Below, in pieces: positions 25,501 to 35,958 of a stretch of 46,646 nt of DNA (positions within the stretch are counted from its first letter, which is position 1; each line of letters starts with the position of its first letter). Position numbers and translations under genes: made by a program. The DNA lies in contig WREQ01000007.1 in NCBI GenBank assembly GCA_009779255.1, positions 1 to 46,646 on the forward strand, given 5' to 3'. The notes under the pieces are model-generated. The model ran no database searches. It was given only the letters and a program-made list of their open reading frames with translations, and was not told the DNA's origin. The DNA comes from Dehalococcoidia bacterium. Its GTDB lineage: Bacteria; Chloroflexota; Dehalococcoidia; Dehalococcoidales; UBA1222.

Positions 25501-25576
25501 AGGAGTGTAGCTCAGTTGGTAGAGCAGCGGTCTCCAAAACCGCCGGTCGAGGGTTCGAGTCCTTCCACTCCTGCCA
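25501..25576 (+). tRNA. tRNA-Trp (CCA anticodon)
   Basis: Acceptor arm AGGAGTG pairs with CACTCCT. The D arm has AGCTCAGTTGGTAGAGC, the anticodon loop reads TCTCCAAAA with CCA, and the T loop is GGTTCGAGTCC. The 3' CCA is encoded. First of a four-tRNA cluster. Confidence 0.96.
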
Positions 25577-25578
25577 GC

Positions 25579-25666
25579 GCCGAGATGGTGGAATGGCAGA
25601 CACGCTAGCTTGAGGGGCTAGTGAACTTTATCGTTCGTGAGAGTTCAAATCTCTCTCTCGGCACCA
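25579..25666 (+). tRNA. tRNA-Leu (GAG anticodon)
   Basis: Acceptor GCCGAGA pairs with TCTCGGC. The anticodon stem CTAGC/GCTAG encloses TTGAGGG. A long variable arm is present as expected for leucine tRNAs. CCA is encoded. It begins two bases after tRNA-Trp. Confidence 0.95.
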
Positions 25667-25682
25667 ATAGGTTCTATAACAG

Positions 25683-25757
<75 letters not shown>

Positions 25758-25779
25758 CTTTTTTTAACCCGCCTGATAT

Positions 25780-25850
25780 GGCGACGTCGCCAAGTGGCAA
25801 GGCAGGGGTCTGCAAAACCCCCATCAGCGGTTCGAATCCGCTCGTCGCCT
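25780..25850 (+). tRNA. tRNA-Cys (GCA anticodon)
   Basis: Acceptor GGCGACG pairs with CGTCGCC, discriminator T as required for cysteine. Anticodon loop TCTGCAAAA with GCA. Unlike the other tRNAs in the cluster the 3' CCA is not encoded, so a CCA-adding enzyme is needed. A T run follows. Confidence 0.95.
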
Positions 25851-25994
25851 TTTAGTTTCGCGCCGCGGCTGACTTCGTTCCGTTTTTTCTGCGCTTCATC
25901 CCGTCAATACCCGCGCAACATCAAAGACTGTCATCGTTGAGTAAAATCATCTCTCACATCAACACATCCGGAGAGCATAGCGGCAATTTAAGCC

Positions 25995-26048
25995 AGTGTA
26001 TAAGTTCAAACAGATATTGGATCATACAAGATATTGAACTCATACACT
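25995..26048. repeat. Inverted repeat carrying shared promoter motif halves
   Basis: AGTGTATAAGTTC (25995-26007) pairs with GAACTCATACACT (26036-26048) with one mismatch around a 28-base centre. The centre contains AGATATTG twice. The arms resemble the end of the shared motif, so two copies may face each other here. It overlaps the promoter of the next gene. Confidence 0.6.
26010..26028 (+). promoter_or_regulatory. Shared upstream promoter motif, copy C
   Basis: AGATATTGGATCATACA ends at 26028, exactly 5 bp (agata) before the -35 TTGAAC. Upstream it is preceded by GTTCAAAC, as is copy D. It lacks one base in the TGGACTCA part relative to copies A and B. Confidence 0.5.
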
Positions 26049-26063
26049 TTGAGGTAGTATACT
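26034..26063 (+). promoter_or_regulatory. Promoter of the 26147 membrane protein gene
   Basis: TTGAAC (26034-26039), an 18-bp spacer and TATACT (26058-26063). Confidence 0.65.
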
Positions 26064-26146
26064 GGAAAAGAAAGTCGTGAACGCTGTTTCATGGAGCTTA
26101 TTGCGGTTGTATACGCCTACAAAGATGAGGTGATCAAAATGAAAAA

Positions 26147-26359
26147 ATGATTTTTGGCGGGATGCTAATGGTGTCAGGCACGCTAGGCGCAGCAGCAGCA
26201 ATATTATCATTCGGTGTATTGGCAATGAATACTGGGCTTGCGTCTTTTTCGCAAGCGTTGTCTTGGTACGGACTAATGCCAGTTTTTGTAGCATTCATCA
26301 TCATTGGAGTTGCAGGATTTCTGCTTGGAATATGGGGCGTGATTGAAAAAGATAAATAG
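26147..26359 (+). CDS. Small two-helix membrane protein
   Basis: A 70-residue protein with two hydrophobic segments (about residues 2-30 and 40-63) ending in GVIEKDK; no known family. The ribosome-binding sequence GAGGTG is spaced for an ATG at 26139 that reads only MKK before a TGA, and that TGA overlaps the ATG at 26147. Either this three-codon leader is translated and the ribosome restarts at the overlapping ATG, or an A is missing from the A6 run (26142-26147). With the extra A the protein would begin MKKMIFGGML. The same A6 arrangement is seen in the lipoprotein gene at 4762. Confidence 0.6.
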   Translation: MIFGGMLMVSGTLGAAAAILSFGVLAMNTGLASFSQALSWYGLMPVFVAFIIIGVAGFLLGIWGVIEKDK

Positions 26360-26646
26360 CTTAGGAGCACGCCTTGTCGCCCTTGCTCGTAAAAGTCGGG
26401 CGTCGCTCATGGATTCTTGATCGGGCAACCGTATGCAAACTTGTTAATCAAGTGTCAGTTCATAAATATAACGATAAGTGTGTTATCCAGACTCAGACAG
26501 TACAATCAAGTACAACCTCGCATGGTGTATAAACTCAAACCAGACTCTGCCAACCACGAAAAGACAACTTATCGGATGTCTCTTAGTGGTATAGCGGAGA
26601 CTCCAAAGTTGAAGGCATGTTGATTAAACAGTAAAATACATTCTAT
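26360..26646. other. Interval without supported gene
   Basis: Short frames here lack ribosome-binding sites and family likeness. A fragment at about 26523 (GTGTATAAACTCAAACC) resembles the shared motif in reverse but has no promoter beside it. Confidence 0.4.
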
Positions 26647-26731
26647 GCCGGGGTGGCGGAATAGGCAGACGCAGAGGACTTAAAATCCTCCGGAGAAATC
26701 CTTGTGGGTTCGACCCCCTCCCCCGGCACCA
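26647..26731 (+). tRNA. tRNA-Leu (TAA anticodon)
   Basis: Acceptor GCCGGGG pairs with CCCCGGC. Anticodon stem GAGGA/TCCTC encloses CTTAAAA. A class II variable arm is present. CCA is encoded. Confidence 0.96.
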
Positions 26732-26766: not shown

Positions 26767-27183
26767 CTATTTTTTTGCGAAGAGGCGCCTCCACCATGGC
26801 AGATGAGCCGCCCCAGCCTCTTTTGGGGCTTCCAGCAGCTTCACCTGCCCTTCTAAGGCGCGAATGCGCTCGGCGGCGGCGCCGAGCTGTGCCGCCAGCG
26901 CCAGATTTTTCTCCTGCAACTCCCGAATAATGTCCATGCTTTCGGCGACATGCAGAGAAGTCGCTTTGTCAACGGCCGTCCTATCCAGCGCGCGTTCTTT
27001 TTCACTTTCAGCAACGCCGTCCAGCTGTGAAGGCAGTGACAATATACGGTACTCATCGCCGAAACTGCCTTTGACCAGTTCGGCCTTCAGCTTGCCGGAT
27101 TTGATATGGCGCCTGATAGTGCGCGTGCAGACATTGAGCTTCTGGGCTGCTTCATTGACGCTGTAAGTTGTCGGTTCCGTCAT
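26767..27183 (-). CDS. Helix-turn-helix regulator with C-terminal coiled coil
   Basis: A 138-residue protein. The N-terminal excisionase/MerR-like helix-turn-helix (about 5-50) reads TYSVNEAAQKLNVCTRTIRR followed by HIKSGKLKAELV. A long predicted coiled coil (about 88-120; IIRELQEKNLALAAQL) and a tryptophan/arginine-rich end (PWWRRLFAKK) follow. This layout resembles small DNA-binding proteins of plasmid-partition or phage type. The ATG at 27183 lies 9 nt after a -10 box, hence probably leaderless. It lies downstream of an unknown accessory gene and is flanked upstream by repeated GACA/TGTC motifs that may be its operator. Confidence 0.75.
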   Translation of the reverse strand: MTEPTTYSVNEAAQKLNVCTRTIRRHIKSGKLKAELVKGSFGDEYRILSLPSQLDGVAESEKERALDRTAVDKATSLHVAESMDIIRELQEKNLALAAQLGAAAERIRALEGQVKLLEAPKEAGAAHLPWWRRLFAKK

Positions 27184-27192
27184 AATGCGGAC

Positions 27193-27221
27193 AGTGTACA
27201 ATCTTTGACAGGGATTGTCAA
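27193..27221 (-). promoter_or_regulatory. Promoter of the HTH/coiled-coil gene
   Basis: On the minus strand TTGACA (27221-27216), a 17-bp spacer and TACACT (27198-27193), 9 nt before the start. Confidence 0.8.
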
Positions 27222-27292
27222 TGGACAAAAGACCATCAGCTCAGTTATAACTCAGTCACACAGACAATGTCTAGACAAAAGAGTTGACAAAA
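27204..27292. promoter_or_regulatory. Cluster of GACA/TGTC motifs, possible operator
   Basis: Within 90 bp there are TTTGACA, ATTGTCA, TGGACAAAAGA, CAGACAATGTCTAGACA, a second GACAAAAGA and GTTGACA. Two near-identical GGACAAAAGA/AGACAAAAGA direct repeats lie about 45 bp apart. They overlap and extend upstream of the -35 box of the HTH gene, consistent with cooperative self-repression. Confidence 0.4.
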
Positions 27293-27294
27293 AC

Positions 27295-28320
27295 CTACTC
27301 TTCTTCCACGGCGCGCCTGGCGGCAAGGCGGCGGATGTCCACACCTACGGCGGGCGACATCGGCAACTGTAGCGTCACTCCCGGTTGGCGCTGCAGGTAA
27401 GAGCTGGTATAACTGGTGGGATAGGAATAGACAACCTGCACCTTGGGATGCTCCAGGCAGAACAGGAACACCCCCACCGTTTGCGGCTTGGTGCCGAACG
27501 GTCCGATAACCACGTTGAAGGTATCGCGGACTTCATGATAAATACTTTCCAGCGCATTCCTTACGCCGTAGGGATCATCCGGAGGCACGTCACGCACCTC
27601 TACGCCCTCCTGCTGGAGCAGAAGGGCATTGTTCTTCCTGGCATACTCCAGATAGTCCATCTGCCCGTCGCGGGGAGGATTGCTGATGAGCGCGATGGTA
27701 CGCGCCGGGTTGAAGTGCTTCCACACCGACAGCGAGCGGTCCGGCTCGAACCCCAGCAGCAGCACCAACAGCGTCTGTTTTTCCATAGAAATCGTACCAA
27801 AGAAATTTGACACCGTGGTTATCTGCTCCACGCCGCGGGTGAGTTTAGTCGTAGTATAGGACTGGGTAGTATGAATAATGCGCGGGATGCCCATGTTCTG
27901 TTCGGCAACGATAAAATACAGCAGCTGTAGCAGGTAAATCTTGGTGAAGCCGCTGATGTCTATGGTAATAAACGGCTCGTCGGCATCCTTGGGTTTGCAC
28001 CTGGTCCAGATATTTTTAAGCTGGTTGATGGCCTCCGCCGGGTTGTCGCGCTGACAACGGATGATATACACGCCCTCGGCAGTATGACGGGTCAGGTGCG
28101 CCTGGAGTTTGGAAAGGTTGGCATCGACTTCCTTGCCGTAAAAGGGGTCTTCAATGACGAACACGATACTGTAGCGTACGCGGAATCCAGAGGCAAAACA
28201 CAGCGCGCCGGAAACACTCCGGTCTTCAAAACTGGAGCAACAGATGAAGAGATCGTCTGCTCCATACTCATTCAGCCGGGGAAGCTTATCGACGACAACC
28301 GGCTCACCGTAGGCTTTCAT
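27295..28320 (-). CDS. Uncharacterised protein, possible Rossmann-like (CARF-like) sensor
   Basis: A 341-residue protein that I cannot assign. It has no signal peptide or membrane segment. The N-terminal half contains LFICCSSFEDRS (about 23-34) and a conserved-looking ITIDISGFTKIYLLQLLYFI (about 116-135). The C-terminal half contains LLVLLLGFEPDRS and VVIGPFGTKPQTVGVFLFCL. The GPFGTKPQ and ISGFTK segments sit where CARF-type nucleotide-sensor proteins carry their TGGTK-like loop, so two tandem Rossmann-like folds are plausible, but this is inference. GGGAGCG lies 8 nt before the ATG at 28320. Paired with an HTH/coiled-coil gene 115 bp downstream. Confidence 0.75.
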   Translation of the reverse strand: MKAYGEPVVVDKLPRLNEYGADDLFICCSSFEDRSVSGALCFASGFRVRYSIVFVIEDPFYGKEVDANLSKLQAHLTRHTAEGVYIIRCQRDNPAEAINQLKNIWTRCKPKDADEPFITIDISGFTKIYLLQLLYFIVAEQNMGIPRIIHTTQSYTTTKLTRGVEQITTVSNFFGTISMEKQTLLVLLLGFEPDRSLSVWKHFNPARTIALISNPPRDGQMDYLEYARKNNALLLQQEGVEVRDVPPDDPYGVRNALESIYHEVRDTFNVVIGPFGTKPQTVGVFLFCLEHPKVQVVYSYPTSYTSSYLQRQPGVTLQLPMSPAVGVDIRRLAARRAVEEE

Positions 28321-28488
28321 CTCGCGCTCCCTTAATGCGGGCACCAGCGCCGCGCAATGCCAATATAGACGGAGCGGCAAAGAATGTCAAACCGCCGAGT
28401 TGGAAACATTCAGAGATCAACTATTGGCAGTTAGCTTCCTCCCCTCTCCTCATGTCGTTCCGGCCCCAAAACTCATCAACTCATAATC

Positions 28489-28935
28489 CTACACAGGCTG
28501 ATTTGAGAGCACTTCGAGTACGCGGTAAAAAGTTGCCATGTCGTCACGGGTAATTTTGCCATCAAGGCGTTTTTCTGTTTCATGCATTTGCGCCTTCTTC
28601 TTTTTGGCAAAGTCGAGGCCTTTTGGGCTTAAAATGATTTTTATGCCGCGTGTCTGGCCTTTGTTTTTTCCGTCGCGTTCGACGAAGCCTTTGCCTTCGA
28701 GATCGGCGATTACGCGCGAAACCAAGCCTTTTGTAATGCCGCCCATCGTGCTTAATTCTTGAATCGTGTAGCCGCAGTCGTCGCGGATTATCGGGAAGAG
28801 CACGCGCGTCTGCGCCGGCGTAATTTCCTCATTTTGAAGACGCAGCTGAATACGCTCGGCGAGTCGAATCGTCTTTTTAAGCTGCATGATAATTTCATCT
28901 GGAGACGGAGGCAGGGTTTTCGCTGTGCTTTTCAT
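28489..28935 (-). CDS. MarR-family transcriptional regulator
   Basis: A 148-residue winged helix-turn-helix protein. The recognition region is YTIQELSTMGGITKGLVSRV (about 56-75), followed by the wing KNKGQTRGIKIILSPKG, with dimerisation helices at both ends, as in MarR. It is the last gene of an ABC exporter operon; its ATG overlaps the end of the permease gene by 4 bp. It most likely represses the operon from the two palindromes at 30660-30715 and responds to a transported compound. Confidence 0.9.
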   Translation of the reverse strand: MKSTAKTLPPSPDEIIMQLKKTIRLAERIQLRLQNEEITPAQTRVLFPIIRDDCGYTIQELSTMGGITKGLVSRVIADLEGKGFVERDGKNKGQTRGIKIILSPKGLDFAKKKKAQMHETEKRLDGKITRDDMATFYRVLEVLSNQPV

Positions 28936-29705
28936 AACGGCAAATCCTTTTTGAGAAATTTGTTTATCCCAGCAATATAGAGTGCCATGGCAATCGCAAA
29001 CATCGCGATAAAGGCGCCGGCGAAGCTTCCGCCGCTTACAACCGCGGCGGTGTCGAAGAGGGTGTTTAATGAGAAGTACTTCAAAAAGCCCAGGCCGTCG
29101 AGCGAGGAAAGCGAGTTCAGCACGAAAAAGGCAACTGGCAGTCCGGCGCCAATCATGAGCGCCTGCCCGCTTTTATCAAACCAGCAACTTGCAGCAAAGC
29201 AGATCCCGCTGACCGCGAGGCCGTACAGCGTAAATCCTGAAATCAGCAGCCAGAATTTGCCGTAATCCAGGCCTACGCCCATGAGCGCGCTCATCCCGGA
29301 TGCCACCAAACCGATCGTCACGCACATCGTGACAAGCGACACGATATAAAACAGAGCCTTTGAAAAAATGACCTGCCGGCGCGTAACCGGCGTATTGAGC
29401 GTGAAGCTCATCGTGCCGCGGTCGACTTCGTTCACAACCAGCTTGTTGCCGGTGGCGATTGCGTAAATCAGCATCAGAATAATTCCCATCATGCCGAAAA
29501 TCATGTTGCGGTACATCTCGAGCATGGTGACGTTGCCCATGCCACCCGGCCTGCCTTGGCCAGCTGCGCCGCCGCTGTCTATCATCCCCGGCATCACAGC
29601 GGTCATCACCACCACGAAAAAGCACACGACGCCGGTCATTATCATCCACAACCCCCGGTTGTTGCGGAAACTTTGTTTAAGCTCGGATTTAGACAGCAGC
29701 TTCAT
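28932..29705 (-). CDS. ABC-2 type transporter permease
   Basis: A 257-residue membrane protein with about six hydrophobic segments (for example 20-42, 68-92, 115-140, 148-172, 182-205 and 228-250). Between the first two is a glycine-rich external loop (GGAAGQGRPGGMGN). The cytoplasmic segment EVDRGTMSFTLNTPVTRRQV is the typical ABC-2/NatB-type coupling region. The start at 29705 is chosen because AGAGG lies 9 nt upstream; ATG 29714 is too close to it. It overlaps the ATPase gene by 17 bp. Forms an exporter with that ATPase; substrate unknown. Confidence 0.88.
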   Translation of the reverse strand: MKLLSKSELKQSFRNNRGLWMIMTGVVCFFVVVMTAVMPGMIDSGGAAGQGRPGGMGNVTMLEMYRNMIFGMMGIILMLIYAIATGNKLVVNEVDRGTMSFTLNTPVTRRQVIFSKALFYIVSLVTMCVTIGLVASGMSALMGVGLDYGKFWLLISGFTLYGLAVSGICFAASCWFDKSGQALMIGAGLPVAFFVLNSLSSLDGLGFLKYFSLNTLFDTAAVVSGGSFAGAFIAMFAIAMALYIAGINKFLKKDLPL

Positions 29706-30639
29706 TTTTATCATCCTCTTTGTAATAGTTCATGAAGTATTTTTCCAGTGTGAACTTGATCTCGCTCATGTATTCGACATTGCGTTTGTGAATTTCGGCG
29801 ATTACCACGTCCCACTCGGCGTTGTTTATGAGAACGTTGACGCGGTTTTTTTCAAACTTTTCCCCGGTGATTCTGAATTTGAGTTTTGCGAAGCTTTCCG
29901 CCTGCTCTTTTGTTTTAAAGCGGATTTCATATTCCTTGTCTTTGTTGTGTTTGATTTCGTTCATTCCGATTTGCGCGATGATTTTACCCTGTTTGATGAT
30001 TGCGACGCGGTCGCAGGTTTTTTCGACTTCGTCGAACATGTGGCTGCTCATCAAAATCGTTTTGCCTTTTGTTTTTTCGCGCGCGACAAGCTGGCAGAAT
30101 CTGTCTTGCATCAGGGGATCCAGCCCGCTGGTCGGCTCGTCCAGAATAATCGTGTCGGCGTCGTGCATGAAGGCGATTACCAGCGCGGTTTTCTGTTTCA
30201 TACCCTTGCTCATCCGTTTAAGTTCGCCGTGCGGTTTGAGTTGAAAGTATTCGCACAGATCCTGCGCGGGTTTCAAATCACTCATGCCGCGTCTCTCCGC
30301 AATCTGTTTGATAAACTGCCAACCGGTCATGTTGTCGGGAAAGGCGATTTCACCGGCAAGGTAGCCGAGGCGTTCTTGCACCTTTTCCGGATGTTTCCAG
30401 CAGTCTAATCCCAGAATTTCCGTTGCGCCGCTCTGAGGCCTGCTGAACCCCAGCAAGTGCCGGATGGTAGTGGTCTTACCCGCGCCGTTCGGTCCCAGAA
30501 AGCCAAAAATCTCGCCTTTTTTAACGTTGAAGCTGATGTCAAAAACGCCACGGTTCTGCCCGTAATCCTTAGTCAGGTTTTTTACTCTGATGATTTCTTC
30601 GTCAAATGTTCCCGCAATTTTGTCCGTTTTTTCTCTCAT
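29689..30639 (-). CDS. ABC transporter ATP-binding protein
   Basis: A 316-residue exporter ATPase: Walker A GPNGAGKTTTIR (about 49-60), signature region RMSKGMKQK (a degenerate LSGGQ, as in many drug/lantibiotic exporters), Walker B TIILDEPTSGLDP and the switch histidine in MSSHMFDEVE. A C-terminal region of about 80 residues follows. First gene of a three-gene unit (ATPase, permease, MarR regulator) with overlapping coding ends. The promoter and two operators lie directly upstream. GAAGGTGAGCC precedes the ATG. Confidence 0.93.
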   Translation of the reverse strand: MREKTDKIAGTFDEEIIRVKNLTKDYGQNRGVFDISFNVKKGEIFGFLGPNGAGKTTTIRHLLGFSRPQSGATEILGLDCWKHPEKVQERLGYLAGEIAFPDNMTGWQFIKQIAERRGMSDLKPAQDLCEYFQLKPHGELKRMSKGMKQKTALVIAFMHDADTIILDEPTSGLDPLMQDRFCQLVAREKTKGKTILMSSHMFDEVEKTCDRVAIIKQGKIIAQIGMNEIKHNKDKEYEIRFKTKEQAESFAKLKFRITGEKFEKNRVNVLINNAEWDVVIAEIHKRNVEYMSEIKFTLEKYFMNYYKEDDKNEAAV

Positions 30640-31277: not shown

Positions 31278-31538
31278 TGAAACACCTCCTTATGGCTAAT
31301 TTGTAGCTAGGATAGATCATTGGAGACACGCTTGTCAATAGTTTTGAGTCAAATTTACGAATTTACGAAAATTTTTCAAAACTTTTCCGGCCGGCTCGAC
31401 ATGGATCCTAAATAAGCGACTGCTATTACAACCCCTTGAATTTGCAGAAGATATCGTTTACTATCTGAATGACAGTTGGTGTTCCAATGCGGCACAGCAT
31501 GAGAATATCGTCTAAACGTTACAGTGAGGGTATTTAGT
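31278..31538. other. Divergent intergenic region
   Basis: AT-rich region between the divergent DUF5679 and cytochrome genes. I see no clear matched promoter or operator. Confidence 0.4.
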
Positions 31539-33200
31539 ATGAATCGCTCTGTTCATTCTTTAAAGTTTATCCTGTACGCATCAGCCGCACTGATGCTGGT
31601 ACTGGCCGGCTCCTGCAATACCGGCACGCCCGATGACCGCGGAGACTCTCTGGTACAATTCACCACCAGCCTTTTCGCCGGCTCCGGTGATTGCGCCGCC
31701 TGCCATACCAATCTCCAAAACACCGCCGGCGCCGACATCTCCATGGACACCCAATGGCGCTCAACCATCATGGCCAACGCCGCCCGCGACCCGTATTTCC
31801 TGGCTACAGTCGCCTCGGAAGCCGCCAACCTGCCGGAGCTGGCTGGTGCCATTGAAGAGACCTGCGCTACCTGCCACATGCCTATGGCGCTCACCCAGGC
31901 AAAGGTTGATGGCACATCGACCAACATGATGGGTAATGGCTTTCTGAATGCCTCAAATCCGCTCCACAAGGCCGCCATGGACGGCACTTCGTGTACGCTA
32001 TGCCATCAGATACAGGCCGCAGGACTGGGCACGGCTGAAACCTTCGGCGGCGAATACAAAATTGATACCTCAAAATCCGCCCCCGACCGCGTAATCTACG
32101 GTCCTTACGCCAACCCGCTTACCGACACCATGCAACAGGCAGTGGGCTTCACTCCGGTACAGGGCGCTCATATGAGCGAAGCCGCGTTATGCGCCCCCTG
32201 CCATACCGTTTATACCCCCATAATAGATGCATCCGGCAACATCACCGGCCTTTTCCCGGAGCAGGTTCCATACCTTGAATGGAAGGCCTCCGCTTTTGGC
32301 TCCAATCCCAATCCGGCACAGCAGGCTCCCTGCCAGTCTTGCCATATGCTTCCCGCTGGCTCTGGCGCTATAGCAAACGAGCCCTCCACACTCCAGTCGC
32401 GTAATTCTGTCTCCAGGCACTCTGTAGTCGGCGGCAACAGTATTATCCTTGACATAATGAGTGAAAACGTTGAGCAGCTGGGACTGACTGCCTCAGCCGA
32501 GCAGCTAGCTGCCACTGCTCAGCTTGCAAAAGATCAAATTGGCGGGCGGGCCGGTAACATATCGATAATCGACAGCTCTATCGAAAATGGCCTGTTGTCA
32601 GTAACACTTTCCGTAGTCAATCAGACCGGACACAAGTTCCCCACCGGATTCCCTTCCCGCCGCGTCTGGATACACTTCACCGTTACCGACAGCACCGGCA
32701 GAGTAGTTTTCGAATCCGGCAAACCCAACGCCGACGGCAGCATCACTGGCAATGACGCCGATGCCAGCAACAACGCCTTTGAGCCACACTACGACATCAT
32801 CACCTCGCCGGAACAGGTGCAGATTTACGAAGCCATCATGGCCGACACCACCGGTAAAATCGCTTACAACATCCTCAAAGGCGCGTCCTATCTCAAAGAC
32901 AACCGCCTGCTTCCCATCGGTTTTGACAAGAACAACGTTGTCCCTGACGCCGCCGTCCACGGGGATGCCCTGACCGATGCCAACTTTGTCGGCGGAAGCG
33001 ACCAGGTAACCTATCAGGTGAGTCTTAGCGGGAACGGGCCCTACACCGTCAAGGCCGAACTGCTGTACCAGACGATTTCGTACCAGTTTGCGAGGGCCTT
33101 CGTCGGCGACAGCCAGCTGATAAAGGACTTTATCGACTACTACCAGGCCGCCGACAAGCGCCCGTTGCTGGTATCCACCGTTTCGAAAACCTTAGACTAG
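31539..33200 (+). CDS. Five-heme c-type cytochrome lipoprotein
   Basis: A 553-residue exported electron-transfer protein. The N-terminal signal ends in the lipobox LAGSC (Cys26), so it is probably anchored outside the cytoplasmic membrane. Five heme-binding CXXCH motifs are visible: CAACH (52-56), CATCH (109-113), CTLCH (152-156), CAPCH (about 210) and CQSCH (about 265). The C-terminal half has no heme site and contains NQTGHKFPTGFPSRR, a segment I know from other multiheme cytochromes. The start at 31539 is chosen because GAGGG lies 9 nt upstream. It stands alone between a terminator and divergent gene. Redox partner unknown; respiratory or extracellular electron transfer is inferred. Confidence 0.88.
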   Translation: MNRSVHSLKFILYASAALMLVLAGSCNTGTPDDRGDSLVQFTTSLFAGSGDCAACHTNLQNTAGADISMDTQWRSTIMANAARDPYFLATVASEAANLPELAGAIEETCATCHMPMALTQAKVDGTSTNMMGNGFLNASNPLHKAAMDGTSCTLCHQIQAAGLGTAETFGGEYKIDTSKSAPDRVIYGPYANPLTDTMQQAVGFTPVQGAHMSEAALCAPCHTVYTPIIDASGNITGLFPEQVPYLEWKASAFGSNPNPAQQAPCQSCHMLPAGSGAIANEPSTLQSRNSVSRHSVVGGNSIILDIMSENVEQLGLTASAEQLAATAQLAKDQIGGRAGNISIIDSSIENGLLSVTLSVVNQTGHKFPTGFPSRRVWIHFTVTDSTGRVVFESGKPNADGSITGNDADASNNAFEPHYDIITSPEQVQIYEAIMADTTGKIAYNILKGASYLKDNRLLPIGFDKNNVVPDAAVHGDALTDANFVGGSDQVTYQVSLSGNGPYTVKAELLYQTISYQFARAFVGDSQLIKDFIDYYQAADKRPLLVSTVSKTLD

Positions 33201-34528: not shown

Positions 34529-35368
34529 GTGATAATTGACGCTCACACCCATATTTTTCCCCCGCAGATTATAGCCGACCGACGACGCTGGCTCGAACTC
34601 GATGCCGGGTTTGCGACACTTTACGAAAGCCCATCGGCCAGGATGGTCAGTGCGGAGGATCTCATTGAGAGTATGGACAATGCTAGTATTGACATGTCCA
34701 TAGCATGCGGCTTCGCATGGTCTCATGCGGAATTATGCCGTGAGTCCAACGATTACATCATGGAATCTGTTGCGCGCTATCCGGAACGCCTTATCGGACT
34801 GGCCGTAATCAAGCCTGAAGATGGCAGGGACTCTATCGACGAACTTGAGCGCTGCCTTAGGGGTGGCCTGCGCGGACTGGGGGAGCTGAGACCGCACCCC
34901 ACCACCATTGACATTGCCTTTGACAATATCTGGACACCGATTGTAAAAACGCTGGCTGAACATCGCTCGGTTTGCCTTTTCCACGCCTCCGAGCCGGTAG
35001 GGCACGCCTATCCCGGCAAAGAAGTCATCACTCCCGAAGTTTTATACCCGTTCATCGCCCGCCACCCGAAACTCCGTGTTTTGCTGGCGCACTGGGGCGG
35101 CGGCATGCCGTTTTACGGCCTGATGCCGGAGGTCAAAAAGGTTCTATCCAATACATGGTTCGACAGCGCTGCTTCATCCTATCTTTACGACGCCACCATT
35201 TACCGCCAGGTGGCCGACCTAATGGGAGAGGACAGAATTCTGTTCGGCAGCGACTACCCGCTGATGCCACAATCCAGGGCATTAGCCGAAATCAGGAGAC
35301 TTTCCCTTAAAACGACAGCGGAGGCTGCCATCCTCGGTGGCAATGCCGCCGGGTTGTTCGGGTTGTAA
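34529..35368 (+). CDS. Amidohydrolase-related (ACMSD-like) metal-dependent hydrolase
   Basis: A 279-residue TIM-barrel protein of the amidohydrolase-2 family (PF04909). The metal-binding start IIDAHTHIF, LLAHWGGGMPFY and the terminal GSDYPL aspartate are the expected ligands and catalytic acid. Family members hydrolyse or decarboxylate many ring compounds; the substrate cannot be deduced. It starts with GTG, 6 nt after a TATAAT. Its TAA stop overlaps the ATG of thpR by one base, so the two are translationally coupled. Confidence 0.88.
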   Translation: MIIDAHTHIFPPQIIADRRRWLELDAGFATLYESPSARMVSAEDLIESMDNASIDMSIACGFAWSHAELCRESNDYIMESVARYPERLIGLAVIKPEDGRDSIDELERCLRGGLRGLGELRPHPTTIDIAFDNIWTPIVKTLAEHRSVCLFHASEPVGHAYPGKEVITPEVLYPFIARHPKLRVLLAHWGGGMPFYGLMPEVKKVLSNTWFDSAASSYLYDATIYRQVADLMGEDRILFGSDYPLMPQSRALAEIRRLSLKTTAEAAILGGNAAGLFGL

Positions 35369-35958
35369 TGGTCACCCCGGAAACAGCTCGCCTTTTCATC
35401 GTCGCAGAATTGCCGACTGCCGCCATGGAGGAACTGGCAAAACTGCAGGCGCAGCTCAAGAAGGCCTCGGCGAATCGCGCCGCCCGTTGGGTATCGCCTG
35501 ACAACATCCACCTGACCATCAGCTTCTTGGATGAAGTGGTTTTGTCAAGGATTGACAGCGTCAAAAATGCTATTAGACTGACTGCTGGCGAATTCTCATT
35601 TATTGATCTGACGCTCAAAGGCATCGGCGCTTTCCCAAATTTTTTGCAGCCTCGTGTGCTGTGGGCGGGACTGGGCGGGGATATCACCAAACTCGCCGCA
35701 CTGCAAAAACACCTCGAAGCGAGGTTGTCGCAGGCCGGATTCATTTCAGAGAAGCGCGCCTTCCGGCCGCACCTGACGCTGGCACGGCTACACAACGAAT
35801 CCATTCCCAATGACAAACGCCGCCTGGAAGCGTCAGCCGGAAAAGCCACTTTTACCGCTCAGACGTTTTCCGTCACCTCCATCAGCCTGATGCAGAGCCG
35901 GCTTACCCCCTCCGTGCCGATATACACCCGCCTGTTTTCAACTTCCCTGCGCGCCTGA
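35368..35958 (+). CDS. thpR: RNA 2',3'-cyclic phosphodiesterase (ThpR/LigT)
   Basis: A 196-residue 2H phosphoesterase. The two catalytic HXT motifs are HLTI (about 50) and HLTL (about 135), in a pseudo-symmetric fold beginning RLFIVAELP. The family hydrolyses 2',3'-cyclic phosphate at RNA ends and was first described as a 2'-5' RNA ligase. Length is usual. The ATG shares its A with the stop codon of the amidohydrolase gene. Confidence 0.93.
   Translation: MVTPETARLFIVAELPTAAMEELAKLQAQLKKASANRAARWVSPDNIHLTISFLDEVVLSRIDSVKNAIRLTAGEFSFIDLTLKGIGAFPNFLQPRVLWAGLGGDITKLAALQKHLEARLSQAGFISEKRAFRPHLTLARLHNESIPNDKRRLEASAGKATFTAQTFSVTSISLMQSRLTPSVPIYTRLFSTSLRA

Follow-up and report, generated by a model that had tools for sequence, protein, structure and literature searches.

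A conserved stand-alone tandem-CARF protein of Dehalococcoidales as a candidate sensor of an endogenous nucleotide ligand

Introduction

CARF domains are known mostly as receptors of antiviral alarm signals. Among the closest described proteins, Can1 of Thermus thermophilus (PDB 6sce) is a monomer with two CARF domains (PMC6981274), and the CARF domain of RtcR takes as ligands tRNA fragments that carry cyclic-phosphate ends (PMC7790460), which sets a precedent for a ligand other than cyclic oligoadenylate (cOA). The published CARF signature is [DN]x[ST]xxx[RK], with a basic residue after strand 4 (PMC4012209). Here we analyzed a 46.6-kb contig of a Dehalococcoidia bacterium (WREQ01000007.1, its full length being designated the window), which encodes a tandem-CARF protein of 341 residues and, beside it, a helix-turn-helix (HTH) protein of 138 residues. 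The source genome comprises 1.14 Mb in 60 contigs and is 77% complete, and the relatives of the window in public records are metagenome-assembled genomes of Dehalococcoidia and Dehalococcoidales. The two genes are as follows.

27295..28320, minus strand: CARF gene, stand-alone tandem-CARF protein of the PADLOC CARF6 family, ATG start, 341 residues
26767..27183, minus strand: HTH gene, HTH_17/excisionase-like DNA-binding protein with a predicted coiled coil and a WWRRLF tail, ATG start, 138 residues

An initial annotation, made from the DNA letters, had guessed the larger protein to be a CARF-like sensor and had grouped both genes as an undescribed, self-regulated accessory module that might serve in defence. 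Both genes were confirmed on the minus strand, as were the segments ICCSSFEDRS, ISGFTK, and GPFGTKPQ of the 341-residue protein and the WWRR end of the 138-residue protein, whose C-terminus reads WWRRLFAKK. We propose with moderate confidence that the 341-residue protein is a core tandem-CARF sensor of an endogenous nucleotide or RNA-end ligand, and not of cOA from Cas10 or of the product of a cyclase of the cyclic oligonucleotide-based antiphage signalling system (CBASS).

Results

Identity and predicted fold of the CARF protein

The guess of a CARF-like sensor proved right by profiles, motif, and fold. The PADLOC CARF6 model PDLC01911 matched the 341-residue protein at 2e-160 over model positions 1–322 of 325, and the CARF6 profile matched all 33 orthologues tested. 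The family is already represented in PADLOC, so that the idea of an undescribed system is not supported; the CARF6 models presumably go back to the 2020 classification of CARF proteins by Makarova et al. Further PADLOC matches to Csx1 and other CARF models were weak alone, and Pfam gave only a sub-threshold match to the Card1 CARF domain (0.035). The CARF signature is present as DISGFTK in the N-domain of 33/33 aligned sequences; in the C-domain loop GPFGTK, the lysine is kept but the full signature is not matched.

An AlphaFold2 model built from 22 sequences (the window and its relatives) had a predicted local distance difference test score (pLDDT) of 78.5 and a predicted template modelling score of 0.81; single-sequence folding was of no use (pLDDT 36). 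The fold search suggested in the initial annotation recovered CARF chains. The best match by VIA-align was Can1 (Z 13.7, 233 residues spanning both halves, 3.7 Å, 12% identity), and the C-domain matched Csm6, Can2, Cam1, Card1, Csa3, and Crn1 with Z values of 9–13. The predicted model displays a Rossmann-like CARF fold of two domains that probably face each other, in which ISGFTK and GPFGTKPQ, noted earlier as being placed like ligand loops, both follow strand 4 of their respective domains. The domains and loops are listed below, with loop coordinates derived from the residue numbers.

within 27295..28320, minus strand: CARF N-domain, approximately residues 22–154, and C-domain, approximately residues 181–320
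28219..28233, minus strand: N-domain loop after strand 1, SFEDR, residues 30–34, with F31, E32, and R34 invariant
27940..27960, minus strand: N-domain loop after strand 4, DISGFTK, residues 121–127
27736..27753, minus strand: C-domain loop after strand 1, GFEPDR, residues 190–195
27481..27504, minus strand: C-domain loop after strand 4, GPFGTKPQ, residues 273–280, with K278 invariant

Of the 26 positions in the four loops that follow strands 1 and 4, 15 are invariant, which is an enrichment (P 7e-5); the loop bounds were taken from the strands of the predicted model. The likeness of SFEDR to GFEPDR and of GFTK to FGTK was judged by eye only, and the idea that the halves are recognizable sequence duplicates was rejected (hhalign probability <1%). 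No nuclease family was found in the protein by Pfam or NCBIfam; it comprises only two CARF-like domains, and no effector domain was recognized. Sequence relatives of the CARF profile were not found in the PDB, and a search of viral folds with the protein returned nothing.

Distribution and evolution of the CARF gene

The CARF gene was present in all 10 genomes of the window's family and in 57 of the 151 genomes of the order, as a single copy in each. Among 400 genomes sampled from the phylum, none from another order carried it, and no relatives were found in plasmids, phages, or viral contigs. Its frequent neighbors encode a GGCT-like protein, ribosomal protein L25 (rplY), an amidohydrolase, a LigT/ThpR-type phosphoesterase, and ComF, and PADLOC had no match for eight further proteins of the window. 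The mean identity of the CARF orthologues is 0.71, compared with 0.70 for TsaD, and is higher than that of L25, ThpR, and ComF. The ratio of nonsynonymous to synonymous substitution rates (dN/dS) is 0.01–0.06 where dS could be estimated, dS being near saturation in most pairs. In the protein tree, each taxonomic family with at least two sequences forms one group. The slow evolution, the grouping by family, and the housekeeping synteny show that the CARF gene is constrained and vertically inherited, unlike a gene of a defence island. The initial reading as accessory and possibly defence-related is not supported: this is a conserved chromosomal gene of a housekeeping block, and no Cas10 or SMODS partner was found in the window's genome.

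In two genomes, a single frameshift interrupts the CARF gene, at G122:C1:1888298-1889265 (L102) and G127:C1:2023528-2024495 (L103), which are also the only two of the 151 with a SMODS cyclase. In both, one G is apparently missing from a short G run, at different places, and the gene is otherwise intact. The idea that a CBASS cyclase goes along with decay of the CARF gene in these two genomes was not upheld; the frameshifts are probably sequencing errors and possibly early decay.

Search for a signal-making enzyme

Positive controls were detected in the searches for Cas10, SMODS, and diadenylate cyclase (DAC). Cas10 (PF22335) exceeded the cut-off in 3 of the 151 genomes, none being the window's genome (G000) or another of its family, and overlapped with CARF6 only in G054, where the weak Cas10 match coincides with a GGDEF domain. 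The SMODS cyclase (PF18144) was found in two genomes and in none of the window's family, in a search that took in neither Panoptes-type minimal cyclases nor non-SMODS CD-NTases. DAC was found in none of the 151 genomes. GGDEF, which is common in the order, was undetected in four genomes that carry the CARF gene (G000, G003, G007, and G009). The negatives for Cas10, SMODS, and DAC repeat in relatives that are 91–97% complete, although absence from any single incomplete genome is weak evidence. Assignment as an ancillary protein of type III CRISPR is not supported, as Cas10 was not found in the same genome, nor is assignment as a CBASS effector, as no CD-NTase cyclase of the SMODS family, the one searched, was found in the locus or genome.

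The HTH gene and its promoter

The 138-residue protein matched HTH_17 (PF12728) at 7e-8, above the cut-off, and is thus excisionase/MerR-like; the excisionase model TIGR01764 fell just under its cut-off. The coiled coil was judged from the sequence. A strong, near full-length match to the HTH gene occurred in 40 of the 151 genomes, and 35 of these also carry the CARF gene (Fisher P 3e-14, a value overstated since the genomes are related), leaving five with the HTH gene only. Conversely, 22 of the 57 CARF genomes have no HTH match, including all sampled CARF-bearing members of families f16, f36, and f37, some perhaps owing to incomplete assemblies. The expected co-occurrence is therefore real for most HTH-bearing genomes, but the pair is not obligate. 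The HTH gene usually shares the strand of the CARF gene and lies downstream of it, at a distance of 1.6 to 6 kb in family f8, and in some genomes it has the opposite orientation or lies on another contig.

The regulatory features of the window's two genes are as follows.

27190..27221, minus strand: promoter/operator of the HTH gene, TTGACA-N17-TACACT-GTC, with the 3' GTC(AA) half as partner of the half in the −35 box
28362..28390, minus strand: promoter of the CARF gene, TTGACA, 17 nt, TATATT, with similar boxes before most orthologues
27184..27294, no strand: intergenic GACA/TGTC cluster, eight copies

In the HTH promoter, the −35 box TTGACA is followed by a 17-nt spacer and the −10 box TACACT, which ends 9 nt before the ATG. 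This distance fits a nearly leaderless mRNA, as had been supposed, while a leader of 35–40 nt is predicted for the CARF mRNA. The layout with the TTGACA and TGTCAA inverted repeat is shared by most HTH orthologues, with a conserved consensus of TTGACA-N16/17-TATACACT(T)GTCAA shortly 5' of the ATG. The conserved half-site 3' of the −10 box, pairing with the −35 box, fits autorepression, and the HTH gene probably represses itself through this operator. The inverted repeat is close to unique in each genome, and a wider regulon was rejected, since 9 of 12 operator matches are the HTH promoter itself. Comparison of the orthologue upstream regions showed that the TGTCAA operator is absent from the CARF promoter. 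Separate predicted promoters and an operator at the HTH gene only indicate two transcription units that are loosely linked. Of the self-regulated two-gene module proposed initially, autoregulation of the HTH gene is plausible, whereas control of the CARF gene by the same operator and the unity of the pair are not borne out.

The dense GACA/TGTC cluster reported between the genes is real: 8 copies were observed against 2.3 expected from dinucleotide shuffles, with 1 of 1000 shuffles reaching 8, and the count is the highest of any 111-nt stretch in the window. The outer copies are confined to the window's genome.

Neighboring genes

A short way downstream of the HTH gene, the opposite strand carries five tRNA genes (Trp, Leu, Gly, Cys, and Leu; 25501–26731). 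On the other side, genes for a MarR regulator, an ABC-2 permease, and an ATPase (28489–30639) form an insertion that here separates the CARF gene from the GGCT/rplY block, and several other families have ABC genes within that block. A 558-residue protein (31524–33200) has multihaem cytochrome-like matches (MtrC/MtrF and cytochrome c7). A LigT/ThpR 2'-5' RNA ligase-like phosphoesterase (35368–35958) belongs to the syntenic block of the CARF gene in many relatives. Its proximity is suggestive, yet it is one of several syntenic genes, and its position does not amount to evidence of a link to the CARF gene.

Discussion

In the explanation that we favor, the two CARF domains of the chain probably lie opposite one another in a Can1-like manner, and the SFEDR/DISGFTK and GFEPDR/GPFGTK loops would line a single putative pocket at the centre, where a ligand may bind. 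The gene belongs to the core chromosome of many lineages in one Dehalococcoidia order, and the most likely role of its product is to sense or process a ligand of ordinary metabolism or stress, either a nucleotide or an RNA end. Because it has no recognized effector domain, it would have to work by way of a partner protein or by cleavage of its own ligand. The HTH gene would be a separate transcription unit, probably autorepressed. We offer more tentatively the broader proposal that CARF signalling has a housekeeping form in Dehalococcoidia, based on a constrained core sensor of an endogenous signal and independent of CRISPR or a CBASS cyclase.

Several observations weigh against a core sensor of this kind. 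The AlphaFold2 model is only moderate and derives from fairly similar sequences, and the halves fail to match each other by profile. With the gene in just 57 of the 151 genomes, core status holds within families, and elsewhere the gene is missing or lost. In addition, the window's genome is incomplete (77%), and the cyclase search did not extend to Panoptes-type minimal cyclases or non-SMODS CD-NTases. The protein could instead serve an unrecognized antiphage signalling system as a ring nuclease or as a sensor of cyclic oligonucleotides, degrading or sequestering the signal against self-harm, with a cyclase that has diverged or lies elsewhere. Its fold and motif are as in cOA sensors, CARF6 is catalogued among defence proteins, two genomes have a SMODS cyclase, and effector-less stand-alone CARF proteins include known ring nucleases such as Crn1/Sso2081 (PMC10018336). 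We nevertheless regard this as unlikely, given that strong purifying selection is atypical of defence genes, as are vertical inheritance and housekeeping synteny, and that the only genome combining above-cut-off Cas10 with CARF6 is G054, with its match on a GGDEF domain.

It is also quite unlikely that a ligand-sensing CARF protein alters the activity of the adjacent HTH protein and that the latter controls the pair. CARF proteins are often fused to winged HTH (wHTH) domains (PMC4012209), most HTH genomes carry the CARF gene, and in most shared genomes the two are adjacent or nearly so, usually on the same strand. However, each gene also occurs without the other, some pairs are unlinked or oppositely oriented, the promoters are separate with the operator missing from the CARF promoter, and linkage to the CARF gene is about equally frequent for its divergent GGCT-like and rplY neighbors. 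A structural or scaffolding Rossmann-like protein that has lost nucleotide binding would agree with a GPFGTK loop outside the strict CARF signature and with the lack of a sequence relative in the PDB, but it is improbable because conservation is among the highest in the protein for the loop residues at the ligand positions.

With a rate of evolution as low as that of TsaD, in genomes that have no recognized alarm-signal synthase, this CARF protein suggests that the fold has another use, either older or separate. The interest lies in this core, constrained status without a recognized cyclase, the protein family itself being already catalogued as CARF6. The ligand is directly testable with purified protein, and the order appears to include cultured organohalide-respiring bacteria, so that existing transcript and protein data could be re-read.

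Comparison with known systems

The 33 orthologues tested match PADLOC CARF6 (PDLC01911 and related models) over their full length; the models are silent on function, and the genes described here lie outside defence loci with no cyclase partner detected. The N-terminal HTH_17/MerR-like domain of the HTH protein matches models of excisionases, phage Gp37, and RacA, from which it differs by a conserved C-terminal coiled coil and WWRR tail, and no integrase was seen adjacent to its gene. Csa3, a CARF-wHTH transcription factor, resembles the locus in linking a sensor with DNA binding, and its CARF domain is matched by the C-domain with Z of about 9, whereas the DNA-binding protein here is encoded by a separate gene that has its own promoter and is often absent. 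RtcR exemplifies CARF regulation outside type III CRISPR with an RNA-end ligand; its CARF domain is divergent and shares the chain with AAA+ and HTH domains, and the likeness drawn here is one of description. Can1, the best structural match, carries nuclease and nuclease-like domains in its CARF chain and belongs with type III CRISPR, while the 341-residue protein shows neither these domains nor an association with type III CRISPR and may correspond to the sensor part of Can1 alone.
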